Origin: Kiloniellaceae bacterium
Lineage (GTDB): Bacteria; Pseudomonadota; Alphaproteobacteria; Kiloniellales; J153
Assembly (NCBI GenBank): GCA_021776055.1
Contig: JAJFGP010000027.1
Location: 1-38,718 of the forward strand
Length of the DNA stretch: 38,718 bases
Direction: 5' to 3'
Shown: positions 31,899 to 35,302 of the stretch, in pieces
Layout: every line of letters starts with the position of its first letter
How positions within the stretch are numbered: position 1 is the first letter of the stretch
Position numbers and translations under genes: made by a program
Notes under the pieces: model-generated
Database searches by the model: none
What the model was told of the DNA's origin: nothing
The model's input: only the letters and a program-made list of their open reading frames with translations

Positions 31899-32121
31899 TG
31901 ACGAGTGCTCCTTGTGTCCAAAATCACCCGGCTCTTTTCAAGCAACAGGCGGGCACAGGATCGAATTTGGACGTCGATCCAGCAGAGCACTTAGCGTTCC
32001 GCTCTCTCAATAATGAGTTAACTTTTTAGGCAAAATTCCACGCTGTATCCGTTCGGCGTTTTTTTGGAGGCATATCGCGGCACACCTAGCAGAGGTCAGA
32101 CTCGCGCCCCCAACTCCCCTC
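31899..32121. other. Gene-free stretch upstream of the methionine leader
   Basis: These 223 bases are upstream of the FkbM gene on one strand and the riboswitch promoter on the other. They are comparatively AT-rich. I see no reading frame, RNA gene or repeat in them. Confidence 0.6.
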
Positions 32122-32151
32122 TTGACACCGCCCCTCGTTTGCGGTTGGCTA
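32122..32151 (+). promoter_or_regulatory. Candidate promoter of the osmC-metY-metA operon
   Basis: A perfect TTGACA (32122-32127) is followed after 17 or 18 bases by TTGGCT or TGGCTA (32145-32151). Transcription would begin about 5-8 bases later, right at the first base-paired strand of the first riboswitch aptamer (32158). That placement supports the assignment even though the -10 box is weak. Confidence 0.6.
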
Positions 32152-32156
32152 GGGGA

Positions 32157-32212
32157 CAGCGCCGATTTGATGCTTAGATTGCGGGCGCTTTAAAAATGCG
32201 GCTAAAGCGAGG
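32157..32212 (+). ncRNA. SAM-II-class riboswitch, first aptamer
   Basis: The sequence folds as the H-type pseudoknot of SAM-II. P1 is AGCGCC (32158-32163) with GGCGCT (32184-32189). Loop 1 is GATTTGA (32164-32170), matching the conserved AUUUGA/AUUUAA. TTGC (32179-32182) pairs with GCTA (32201-32204) across the usual U-U mismatch, and CTT (32173-32175) with GAG (32209-32211) closes P2 in the same register as known SAM-II RNAs. The AT-rich TTTAAAAA linker and GGCTAAA are the other conserved parts. High SAM should stabilise P1 and favour the terminator that follows. It precedes a methionine operon, the usual SAM-II target. Confidence 0.88.
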
Positions 32213-32220
32213 GGATGTGT

Positions 32221-32252
32221 CCGCCCGGCTTTTTGTCGCGGCGGCTTTTTTT
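32221..32252 (+). terminator. Riboswitch-controlled intrinsic terminator with competing antiterminator
   Basis: Stem CCGCC (32221-32225) with GGCGG (32240-32244) continues inward over one bulge (C32239) as CGGC with GTCG (32226-32229 with 32235-32238, one G-U pair) around a TTTTT loop. It is followed by C plus seven T. CGGGCG (32182-32187), mostly the 3' strand of the first aptamer's P1, is exactly complementary to CGCCCG (32222-32227) in the 5' side of this stem. Without SAM that pairing should block termination; with SAM P1 holds the strand and the terminator forms. Confidence 0.82.
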
Positions 32253-32283
32253 GTGCTCGGATTGGTCCACCGAAAAACGGACT

Positions 32284-32332
32284 CGCGGAATTTGAGGGGC
32301 AGCTTGCACCGCGTCGACAATGCTAAAGCGCC
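32284..32332 (+). ncRNA. Second SAM-II/SAM-V-like aptamer
   Basis: The same architecture recurs 72 bases downstream of the first. P1 is CGCGG (32284-32288) with CCGCG (32309-32313). Loop 1 is AATTTGA (32289-32295). TTGC (32304-32307) faces GCTA (32322-32325), and GGC (32298-32300) pairs with GCC (32330-32332) in the canonical register. The tail GCTAAAGCG is identical to that of the first aptamer (32201-32209). The linker between P1 and GCTAAA is three bases shorter than in the first aptamer, which may place it in the related SAM-V class. P1 and P2 sequences differ from the first copy, so the pairing is compensatory rather than copied. Confidence 0.78.
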
Positions 32333-32377
32333 ACGGGACAAGATGTCTCCGTGGGCCCTGGCTTAGACAGAGGAGAC
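32331..32377 (+). promoter_or_regulatory. Putative translational expression platform before osmC
   Basis: CCACGG (32331-32336) pairs with CCGTGG (32349-32354), and ACA with TGT continues the hairpin to an AGA loop. The hairpin holds GTCTCC (32345-32350), a perfect complement of GGAGAC (32372-32377), the osmC ribosome site seven bases before the ATG. The hairpin shares C32331 and C32332 with P2 of the second aptamer. SAM binding could therefore loosen it and let GTCTCC cover the ribosome site. The two-base overlap makes this competition modest, so the mechanism is tentative. Confidence 0.5.
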
Positions 32378-32383
32378 CTACGG

Positions 32384-32923
32384 ATGACCGTTCAATTCAA
32401 GGATATCTATGACAAGACGCAGGCCGGCCTAAAGAGCACGCCGGAGAACGCCTCGGCCGTGTTCACGGTGCAGACCCGGCAAGTCGAGGGGTTTCGCAGC
32501 GAGGCAACCGTGCGCCAATTCAATGTCACGGTGGACGAGCCCGAGGCCCTGGGCGGTGACGATACCGGACCAACGCCGGTGGAGCTTTTGCTCGCGGCGT
32601 TGGGCAGTTGCCAGGAGATTACCTACCGGCTCTATGCCGATGCGCTGGGGGTGCCGCTCGATGGTGTTTCGGTGCAGCTGACGGGCAATCTGGATTTGCG
32701 CGGCTTCTTTGCCGTCGATCCGGGGGTGCGGCCTGGCTATCAGTCCATCCAAGCAACGGTGCGGCTCGACAGTCCGGCCTCGGACGAGGAGCTGGCGCGT
32801 CTAAAGGAGACGGTCGACCAGCATTGCCCGGTGCTCGACATCCTGGCCGCGGCAACGCCCGTCGAGTTGAAGCTGGAACGCGGGAACGCTGCAGGCTGGC
32901 AGGACACTTGGTCCGCCGCCTAA
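32384..32923 (+). CDS. OsmC-family protein
   Basis: A 179-residue member of the OsmC/Ohr fold. The two conserved redox cysteines are Cys76 in LAALGSCQEIT and Cys148 in DQHCPVLDIL, and GPTPVELLLAAL is the helix leading to the first. Peroxidatic reduction of hydroperoxides is the known activity of OsmC and Ohr, but this subgroup is poorly characterised. It is the first gene behind the tandem riboswitch, with AGGAG seven to eight bases before the ATG, and is followed by metY after 88 bases. That puts a thiol protein under SAM control with sulfur-assimilation enzymes, and suggests a role linked to methionine or sulfur intermediates. Confidence 0.9.
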   Translation: MTVQFKDIYDKTQAGLKSTPENASAVFTVQTRQVEGFRSEATVRQFNVTVDEPEALGGDDTGPTPVELLLAALGSCQEITYRLYADALGVPLDGVSVQLTGNLDLRGFFAVDPGVRPGYQSIQATVRLDSPASDEELARLKETVDQHCPVLDILAAATPVELKLERGNAAGWQDTWSAA

Positions 32924-33011: not shown

Positions 33012-34325
33012 ATGACCATCAAGACCCCCCATCCAGAGACCATCGTGCTCCACGCCGGCTATCGCAGCGACCCGGCCACCGGCGCCGTCGCGGCACCGAT
33101 CTATCAGACCACGTCCTATCAATTCGCCAACACCCAGCAGGCCGAGAATCTGTTCGCCCTGAAAGAGCTGGGTAACATCTACAGCCGCATTATGAATCCG
33201 ACCTGCGCGATTCTCGAGGAGCGGGTTAGCGCCCTCGAGGGCGGCGTGGCGGCCCTGGCCGTCAGCTCGGGACAGGCGGCCACGGCGATCTCCATCCAGA
33301 ACATCGCCCGTGCCGGAGACAACATCGTCAGTTCCACCGATCTGTACGGCGGAACCTGGAACCTGTTCGCCAATACCCTGCCGACGTTCGGCATCGAGGT
33401 GCGTTTCGTTGATCCGGCCGACCCGGAGAATTTCCGCCGCGCCACCGACGGCCGAACCCGCGCCTACTACGCCGAGACCCTGCCGAACCCGAAGCTGCAA
33501 GTCTTCCCCATCGGCGAAGTAGCGGCCATCGGCGAGGACCTCGGCGTGCCGTTGATCGTCGATAACACGGCGGCGCCGGTCATCTGCCGGCCGTTGGCGC
33601 ACGGGGCCCACATCGTCGTCCATTCGACCACCAAGTACATCGGCGGCCACGGCACTTCCATCGGCGGTATCCTCGTCGACGGCGGGAAATTCGATTGGGC
33701 GAAACATGCGGAGCGTTTCCCCCTGCTCAACCAGCCCGACCCCAGTTATCACGGCGCGGTCTGGACCGAGGCCGCCGCACCGCTTGGCCCCATCGCCTAT
33801 ATTCTCAAGGCGCGGGTAACGTTGCAGCGGGATCTTGGCTACGCGCTCAGCCCGTTCAATGCCTTCCAGTTCATCCAGGGGTTGGAGACATTGCCCCTGC
33901 GCATTCGCGAACATTGCCGCAATGCCAGCGCCGTCGCCAAGTTCCTGGCCGAGCACCCGGAAGTGACCAAAGTCATCCACCCCAACCGGCAGACCGGCGA
34001 AGCCAAGCGCCGCGCCGATACCTATCTCTCGGGCGGCAATGGCGGCTTGGTCGGCTTCGAACTGAAGGGCGGCAAAGAGGCCGGACGGCGCTTCATCGAC
34101 GCCCTGCAGTTGTTCTATCACGTGGCCAACATCGGCGATGTGCGTAGCCTGGCCATCCACCCCGCCAGCACCACGCACTCGCAGCTTTCGCCCGCGGAAC
34201 AACTGGCAACCGGCGTCTCGGATGGCTATGTAAGGTTGTCGGTCGGAATCGAGCACATCGACGACATTCTGGCCGATCTGGAGCGTGCCCTGGACGCCGC
34301 GGCAGCCGGCGCCAAGGCGGCCTGA
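33012..34325 (+). CDS. metY: O-acetylhomoserine sulfhydrylase (aminocarboxypropyltransferase)
   Basis: MetY makes homocysteine from O-acetylhomoserine and sulfide with pyridoxal phosphate. The 437-residue length matches MetY rather than the shorter MetZ or MetB. The opening is ETIVLHAGYRSDPATGAVA, and YSRIMNPTCAILEERVSALEGG follows around 57-78. Asp184 in LIVDNTAAP supports the cofactor ring and Lys208 in HSTTKYIGGHGTSIGG forms the internal aldimine. The ATG at 33012 follows GAGGAT by about 8 bases; the open frame upstream is not conserved. A GC-rich hairpin (32949-32954 with 32966-32971) lies in the gap after osmC. It is followed by metA after 23 bases. Confidence 0.95.
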   Translation: MTIKTPHPETIVLHAGYRSDPATGAVAAPIYQTTSYQFANTQQAENLFALKELGNIYSRIMNPTCAILEERVSALEGGVAALAVSSGQAATAISIQNIARAGDNIVSSTDLYGGTWNLFANTLPTFGIEVRFVDPADPENFRRATDGRTRAYYAETLPNPKLQVFPIGEVAAIGEDLGVPLIVDNTAAPVICRPLAHGAHIVVHSTTKYIGGHGTSIGGILVDGGKFDWAKHAERFPLLNQPDPSYHGAVWTEAAAPLGPIAYILKARVTLQRDLGYALSPFNAFQFIQGLETLPLRIREHCRNASAVAKFLAEHPEVTKVIHPNRQTGEAKRRADTYLSGGNGGLVGFELKGGKEAGRRFIDALQLFYHVANIGDVRSLAIHPASTTHSQLSPAEQLATGVSDGYVRLSVGIEHIDDILADLERALDAAAAGAKAA

Positions 34326-34348: not shown

Positions 34349-35302
34349 ATGCCCATCAAGATCCCCAATGACCTGCCGGCCCGGCGGACCCTTGAGAGCG
34401 AAGGGGTCAGGATCATTCGGGAAACGGACGCGATCCGCCAGGACGTTCGACCCTTGCGGATCGCGCTCCTCAACCTGATGCCCGACAAGATCCGTACCGA
34501 GACGCAGATCACCCGTGTCGTCGGCAGCACCCCACTGCAAGTGGAGATGACGCTGCTGAAGACGGGAACCTATCAGTCGAAGAACACGCCGGAACGGCAT
34601 TTGCTTGACTTCTATAGGACGTGGGACGACGCACGCCATGAAAAATTTGACGGCATCATCGTCACCGGCGCGCCGATTGAGACTATGCCTTTCGAGGCGG
34701 TCGATTATTGGAACGAGTTGACCGCCATTTTCGACTGGGCACAGACGCACGTGCACAGCGGCTTTTACATCTGTTGGGCGGCGCAGGCTGCTCTGCACCA
34801 CTTCCACAACGTTCCTAAACACGCGTTAGATAAGAAGATGTTCGGCATCTTCCGGCATCAGGTCCTGAAGCCGGACGCCAGTCTGTTACAGGGCTTCAAC
34901 GACGAGTTCTCCATCCCCGTCTCGCGCCATACCGAAACGCGCAAGGAGGATATCCCGCGCAAGCCCGGCTTGAATGTCTTGGCGGAATCGGCGGACTCAG
35001 GATTGTGCCTGATGGAGGACCTACCGCACCGCGCCGTCTATATGTTCAACCACCTGGAATACGATGCCGACACTCTCAAGGGCGAGTTTGAGCGAGACCT
35101 GGCATCGGGCAACGGCATCCAGGTGCCAAAGAACTATTTCCCCGGCGACGATCCACAGCAGCACCCCATCAATCAATGGCGCTCGTACGCACATTTGCTG
35201 TTCTGGAACTGGATTGGCGACATCTACCAAACCACGCCGTACGACATTTCCCAGATTGGTACCGGCACCGACGAGGCGCCGACGCTGGGCAAAACGGCCT
35301 AG
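34349..35302 (+). CDS. metA: Homoserine O-acetyltransferase, MetA type
   Basis: MetA activates homoserine for methionine synthesis. The 317 residues have the catalytic Cys142 in YICWAAQAALH and His235 and Glu237 in FNHLEYD. Residue 111, in TGAPIETMPF, is Glu. In the MetA family Glu111 goes with acetyl-CoA and Gly111 with succinyl-CoA, so this enzyme should make O-acetylhomoserine, exactly the substrate of the adjacent MetY. It is the last gene of the SAM-controlled operon and converges with the cytochrome genes (9-base gap). Confidence 0.95.
   Translation: MPIKIPNDLPARRTLESEGVRIIRETDAIRQDVRPLRIALLNLMPDKIRTETQITRVVGSTPLQVEMTLLKTGTYQSKNTPERHLLDFYRTWDDARHEKFDGIIVTGAPIETMPFEAVDYWNELTAIFDWAQTHVHSGFYICWAAQAALHHFHNVPKHALDKKMFGIFRHQVLKPDASLLQGFNDEFSIPVSRHTETRKEDIPRKPGLNVLAESADSGLCLMEDLPHRAVYMFNHLEYDADTLKGEFERDLASGNGIQVPKNYFPGDDPQQHPINQWRSYAHLLFWNWIGDIYQTTPYDISQIGTGTDEAPTLGKTA

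Follow-up and report, generated by a model that had tools for sequence, protein, structure and literature searches.

Two pseudoknot aptamers stand in the leader of one methionine operon, and the question raised by this locus is to which riboswitch class each of them belongs and whether they act on one step of gene expression or on two. In the window, by which we mean the whole stretch of 38,718 nucleotides analysed here, the leader occupies 32122-32384 and contains, from 5' to 3', a TTGACA box, aptamer 1, a terminator, a hairpin designated P0, aptamer 2, a hairpin overlapping P2 of aptamer 2, a Shine-Dalgarno (SD) sequence and the start codon of an osmC-like gene. Our preferred reading, to which we assign a probability of roughly 0.8, is that a homotypic tandem SAM-II riboswitch with two different platforms controls osmC-metY-metA, aptamer 1 terminating transcription and aptamer 2 hiding the ribosome-binding site (RBS). 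The original prediction had placed the aptamers at 32157-32332, which is right for the aptamers themselves and omits the terminator (32221-32252), the region of the anti-SD and SD (32328-32384) and P0. The features are as follows.

32122..32151, + strand: likely promoter, with a -35 box TTGACA at 32122-32127 and a weak -10 box at about 32145-32151.
32158..32211, + strand: SAM-II aptamer 1, called type 1 (RF00521, 33.3 bits at 32149-32222; orthologues; covariation); P1 at 32158-32163/32184-32189, loop GAUUUGA from 32164, P2 5' strand at 32173-32175 plus 32181-32182, P2 3' strand at 32201-32211.
32198..32239, + strand: antiterminator, predicted without SAM when either the window leader or a truncated transcript is folded free of constraints.
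32221..32252, + strand: intrinsic terminator, composed of a hairpin at 32221-32244 (CCGCCCGGC-UUUUU-GUCG-C-GGCGG), C32245 and seven U at 32246-32252.
32264..32283, + strand: P0 hairpin GGUCC...GGACU, with no gap to P1 of aptamer 2 (covariation, arm permutation).
32284..32332, + strand: SAM-II aptamer 2, called type 2 (RF00521, 22.9 bits at 32275-32346; model R1, 81.2 bits; covariation); P1 at 32284-32288/32309-32313, loop AAUUUGA at 32289-32295, P2b at 32298-32300/32330-32332, P2a at 32306-32307/32322-32323.
32328..32356, + strand: hairpin GCGCCACGGGACAAGAUGUCUCCGUGGGC, the fold predicted in the absence of SAM, with a 5' arm that shares bases with the P2 3' strand of aptamer 2 and a 3' arm that constitutes the anti-SD.
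32348..32384, + strand: SD-masking hairpin, predicted with SAM, in which UCCGUGGG (32348-32355) pairs with CCUACGGA (32377-32384).
32370-32375, + strand: SD GAGGAG, with the start codon at 32384.
32384..32923, + strand: osmC-like gene, the first of the operon (Pfam OsmC, 80.7 bits).
33012..34325, + strand: metY, O-acetylhomoserine sulfhydrylase (TIGR01326, 598.6 bits; cut-off 495.1).
34349..35302, + strand: metA, homoserine O-acyltransferase, nearest to the acetyl type (NF047918, 450.1 bits; cut-off 460.5).

The profile matches to these three genes agree with the predicted methionine operon; against NCBIfam OsmC_like_Se the osmC-like gene scores 83.9 bits, below the cut-off of 95. The + strand has no open reading frame of 80 aa or more between the two aptamers. 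A terminator-like hairpin with a U run, in the + strand reading, is found at 32040-32059, upstream of the promoter.

Aptamer 1 extends from the P1 5' strand at 32158-32163 to GCUAAAGCGAG, ending at 32211, and aptamer 2 from the P1 5' strand at 32284-32288 to GCUAAAGCGCC, ending at 32332, with a core-to-core distance of 83 nt by the core pattern. Both have the predicted order of elements (P1, AUUUGA loop, UUGC, P1', linker and GCUAAAGCG) and carry the conserved SAM-II core of AUUUG, UUGC and GCUAA(A). The P1 strands differ in sequence (AGCGCC/GGCGCU in aptamer 1 vs CGCGG/CCGCG in aptamer 2) and pair in both; the strands of the pseudoknot P2 likewise differ, with pairing kept.

The covariance search proposed with the original prediction was performed using RF00521 (SAM_alpha) in E-value mode, and gave 33.3 bits (E 9.4e-6) for aptamer 1 and 22.9 bits (E 0.0065) for aptamer 2 in a search of 601 bases. 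These scores are significant by E-value, yet they lie under the 36-bit gathering score, and at gathering scores no Rfam family matched anywhere in the window. Searched genome-wide, aptamer 1 has an E-value of 1.4e-5; this search scores only part of the first-look candidates, and the absence of aptamer 2 from its list is no evidence. A covariance model, R1, was constructed from 42 type-2 aptamers of relatives, with the window's genus left out, and it detected aptamer 2 with 81.2 bits, the E-value being 2.6e-26 for the window and 2.5e-24 when the 3.7 Mb genome is searched. The next-best R1 matches in the genome have 18.7 and 17.4 bits and are without the SAM-II core. Four weak matches of R1 and RF00521 in the same genome were dropped for lack of this core. 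Chance is ruled out for both elements.

The original prediction had described the pair as SAM-V-like as well, by analogy with the heterotypic tandem before bhmT of Pelagibacter, and aptamer 2 as a SAM-V or other SAM class would share with that system the order of terminator first and RBS second. We regard this as extremely improbable, since the SAM-V model (RF01826) has no match in 31900-32500 even at E 10, R1 and RF00521 both assign aptamer 2 to SAM-II, and its P2 pseudoknot and GCUAAA core are those of SAM-II. Judged by sequence and model matches, both elements belong to SAM-II and not to SAM-V, which upholds the tandem SAM-II part of the prediction.

Comparison of orthologous leaders, which had also been proposed as a check, provides evidence for the structures, and P1, P2b and P0 of aptamer 2 covary in 42 relatives. 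The type-2 structure tested (P0, P1, P2a and P2b) was compared with 500 shuffles, which leave the relatedness among sequences in place, and with versions in which the partners were slid by one column. Pairing is found in 95.5% of cells (n=42) and falls to 47-48% after sliding; 53 cells are changed on both sides, against a shuffled mean of 17.7, and the covariation score is 0.278, against 0.152, with none of the 500 shuffles as high. The native structure exceeds all slid versions in percentage paired, both-side changes and covariation score. Within this structure, P1 is 100% paired, one of its pairs having turned from G-C to C-G in 17 of the 42 relatives, and P2b is 93.7% paired, with one of its three pairs changed on both sides and two on one side. 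The permutation test for P2b gives a z of only 1.1-1.7; since the helix hardly varies, this signal is small and the pair count is the better test. The type-1 alignment is 91.4% paired and its covariation, weaker overall than that of type 2, is mostly in P2b (both-side changes in three of four pairs), P1 being nearly invariant (98.3% paired). Of the outcomes named in advance as speaking against the prediction, neither of the two computational ones arose: the second element has a covariance hit, and its helices covary in relatives.

All five pairs of P0 are changed on both sides among relatives, 90.2% of its cells are paired, and its native arms match better than permuted ones, with z = 11.8. 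It is kept, with varying sequence, in tandem leaders and in single type-2 leaders. A literature check of limited extent found no description of P0. As a guess, P0 could stack against P1 or shield aptamer 2 from the terminator.

RF00521 at E 0.1 detected SAM-II elements in 51 of 58 relatives, with scores up to 81 bits, and R1 matched 40 of 61 genomes of the order and 87 of 385 genomes sampled from the class, single aptamers being among these matches. A search with the type-2 core DNA pattern over one genome per species gave at least 118 loci, and the leaders collected from all loci comprise at least 58 distinct tandem and at least 64 distinct single type-2 leaders. The tandem leaders are nearly all alphaproteobacterial and come from several orders; their carriers include Pelagibius litoralis DSM 21314, P. 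marinus, Tistlia consotensis, Aquibaculum arenosum, Thalassobaculum litoreum and Dongia deserti. One tandem leader lies on a contig labelled Anaerolineae, which is probably a mis-binned alphaproteobacterial contig; its metY is 82% identical to that of the window. The tandem leader of Thalassobaculum litoreum (locus L169) precedes a protein with aminomethyltransferase (GCV_T) domains, not metY, and in the metagenome-assembled genome of locus L112 the start of the first open reading frame is similar to this protein.

Aptamers 1 share a mean identity of 0.81 with one another and aptamers 2 one of 0.84, the two aptamers of the same leader averaging 0.63, and all 58 aptamers 2 are nearer to the aptamer 2 of another leader than to their own aptamer 1. 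By these sequence comparisons, aptamers 1 and 2 form two separate ortholog groups. Because identity between leaders is higher than within a leader, the pair predates these lineages, and neither copy is a recent repeat of the other. At the Rfam cut-off no match was obtained at six loci from five relatives of the window's family, and some other SAM-II copies in the genomes of those five relatives pass it. Leaders of the window's lineage are often under the standard RNA-family cut-off.

A CTTGAC (-35) box is located 41-50 nt upstream of the aptamer 1 loop in 54 of the 58 tandem leaders and between the aptamers in none of the 58. From this placement, transcription would start at aptamer 1 and the pair would form one transcript. 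A generic sigma-70 scan found no promoter at the window leader, where the -10 box is weak; in the SAM-II element of metA, a near-consensus promoter immediately precedes P1 (PMC1273637). In the window, the start is likely to be at or just ahead of P1 of aptamer 1.

An intrinsic terminator is present between the aptamers in 52 of the 58 tandem leaders by a strict test and in 55 by a looser one, compared with 0-1 when the inter-aptamer gaps are shuffled. In the terminator of the window, the hairpin loop holds a first U run ahead of the seven-U tract. Since nearest-neighbour folding ignores pseudoknots, the bound state was imposed as a constraint. The unconstrained window leader adopts the antiterminator fold, which uses the P2 3' strand of aptamer 1, and the leader with aptamer 1 held bound adopts the terminator fold. 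The antiterminator joins GCGGC, which lies partly ahead of and partly inside the P2 3' strand, to GUCGC on the 3' side of the terminator and encloses a second helix formed with the terminator 5' arm; it is mutually exclusive with both P2 and the terminator. Holding aptamer 1 bound raised the terminator probability in 31 of 55 leaders and lowered it in 3. These folds point to an intrinsic terminator, with a predicted antiterminator that excludes P2, as the platform of aptamer 1. At high SAM, the P2 pseudoknot of aptamer 1 would use up the antiterminator strand, so that the hairpin at 32221-32244 and the U tract would stop transcription, and transcripts that escape would carry aptamer 2.

Downstream of aptamer 2 the leader is built differently. 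In all 58 tandem leaders the 120 nt downstream of aptamer 2 are free of intrinsic terminators, and a terminator occurs in 1 of the 64 single type-2 leaders. The start codon lies about 50-120 nt past the aptamer 2 core, and a hairpin, GCCACGG...CCGUGGGC in the window, overlaps the P2 3' strand; in a test of 116 leaders, its native arms match far better than permuted ones (z = 8.4). The lack of a terminator, the nearness of the start codon and the covariation of this hairpin argue against a pseudo-cooperative transcriptional pair, in which the second aptamer would act through Rho or a non-canonical terminator and the response would be steeper, with no translational layer. We consider such a pair quite unlikely, even though some tandem SAM-II leaders have one terminator per aptamer (PMC9481103).

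Under the tandem reading with two platforms, SAM on aptamer 2 would cause P2 to withdraw GCGCC (32328-32332) from the downstream hairpin, and the freed CCGUGGG would pair with CCUACGG next to the SD and start codon, blocking translation. Folding of the window with aptamer 2 held bound predicts this pairing beside the start codon, enclosing the SD. At low SAM both alternative structures would form and the operon would be expressed. The unpaired probability of the SD in the window goes from 0.53 to 0.40 on binding, which is a weak effect at equilibrium, and its mean over leaders from 0.34 to 0.31, being lower in 19 and higher in 4 of 57. Because the computed effect on the SD is small across leaders, the RBS step is the weakest part of the model.

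This small equilibrium effect would also suit a leader in which one aptamer alone senses SAM, the other being silenced by the linker or serving as a mere part of the platform. In the SAM-II/SAM-V tandem of Pelagibacter, the linker is reported to silence the SAM-II domain (PMC11508383), and therefore two working sensors should not be assumed. The ligand-pocket consensus (AUUUGA, UUGC and GCUAAA) is, however, preserved across the tandem leaders in aptamer 1 and aptamer 2 alike, as expected if both bind, and solitary type-2 aptamers occur ahead of sulphur genes, which argues that they can work without aptamer 1. A single sensor is accordingly an unlikely explanation in our view, somewhat less so than the transcriptional pair. 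For the tandem with two platforms, we infer that both aptamers bind SAM and switch independently of each other; the analysis supports the two-layer response proposed in the original prediction.

The original prediction had held that SAM-II is normally single except beside SAM-V. This does not agree with the literature: 44 tandem SAM-II examples from RefSeq 80 and environmental data were published in 2022 (PMC9481103). Their leaders combine two complete SAM-II aptamers, and in some of them a terminator follows the first and the second controls the RBS, which is the layout seen here. Since tandem SAM-II has already been published, the kind is known and the leader in the window is a further member. 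The window's tandem lineage is distinguished by two aptamer ortholog groups and by a covarying P0 on the second. The present analysis adds how deeply the pair is conserved, its division into two ortholog groups, P0 and the loci missed at the Rfam cut-off. The terminator-then-RBS design of SAM-II is, with at least 58 leaders in several alphaproteobacterial orders, an old arrangement kept as a unit and not a scattered curiosity, and the two-layer idea can be tested in cultured hosts such as Pelagibius litoralis DSM 21314, Tistlia consotensis USBA 355 and Thalassobaculum litoreum DSM 18839.

The bhmT tandem of Candidatus Pelagibacter also has SAM-II with a terminator first and an RBS-controlling SAM aptamer second (PMC9481103, PMC11508383); the second aptamer is SAM-V there and SAM-II in the window. 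The SAM_alpha (RF00521) metA element shares the P1 and P2 pseudoknot, the promoter before P1, the terminator after P2 and the methionine genes (PMC1273637), whereas both window copies are under the Rfam cut-off and type 2 is marked by P0 and by a P2 5' strand rich in G (GGGGCAGC). The genome of Sinorhizobium meliloti has both a SAM-II acting on transcription (metZ) and another acting on translation (metA) (PMC9373788); that pair precedes different genes, and the window's pair is in one leader.

We see an even chance that aptamer 2 represents an undescribed alphaproteobacterial SAM-II subfamily, marked by P0 abutting P1, often under the cut-off, translational, placed before methionine and sulphate-assimilation genes (cysG, cysI, cysH, DUF2849, solute-binding proteins) and usually in tandem before metY. 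The range of genes preceded by type-2 aptamers is wider than the SAM_alpha regulon given as metY/metA/metX/hom, which a 2014 survey assigned to none of nine Rhodospirillales genomes (PMC4239095). No paper on SAM-II with siroheme was found in a literature of partial coverage, which does not prove novelty. Since the cysG locus of the window's genome is without the GCUAAA core, the window tandem seems to be the sole SAM-II in that genome.

Type-2 aptamers at nine loci precede genes of sulphur assimilation or methionine uptake, namely siroheme synthase cysG, sulphite/nitrite reductase, PAPS reductase, DUF2849, an extracellular binding protein, a MetN-like ABC ATPase with a NIL domain and an NlpA lipoprotein. 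Tandem SAM-II leaders of a second kind were observed ahead of cysG at five loci, three of them among those nine. At two further loci, two type-2 aptamers are separated by about 1.1-1.2 kb and apparently precede separate genes.
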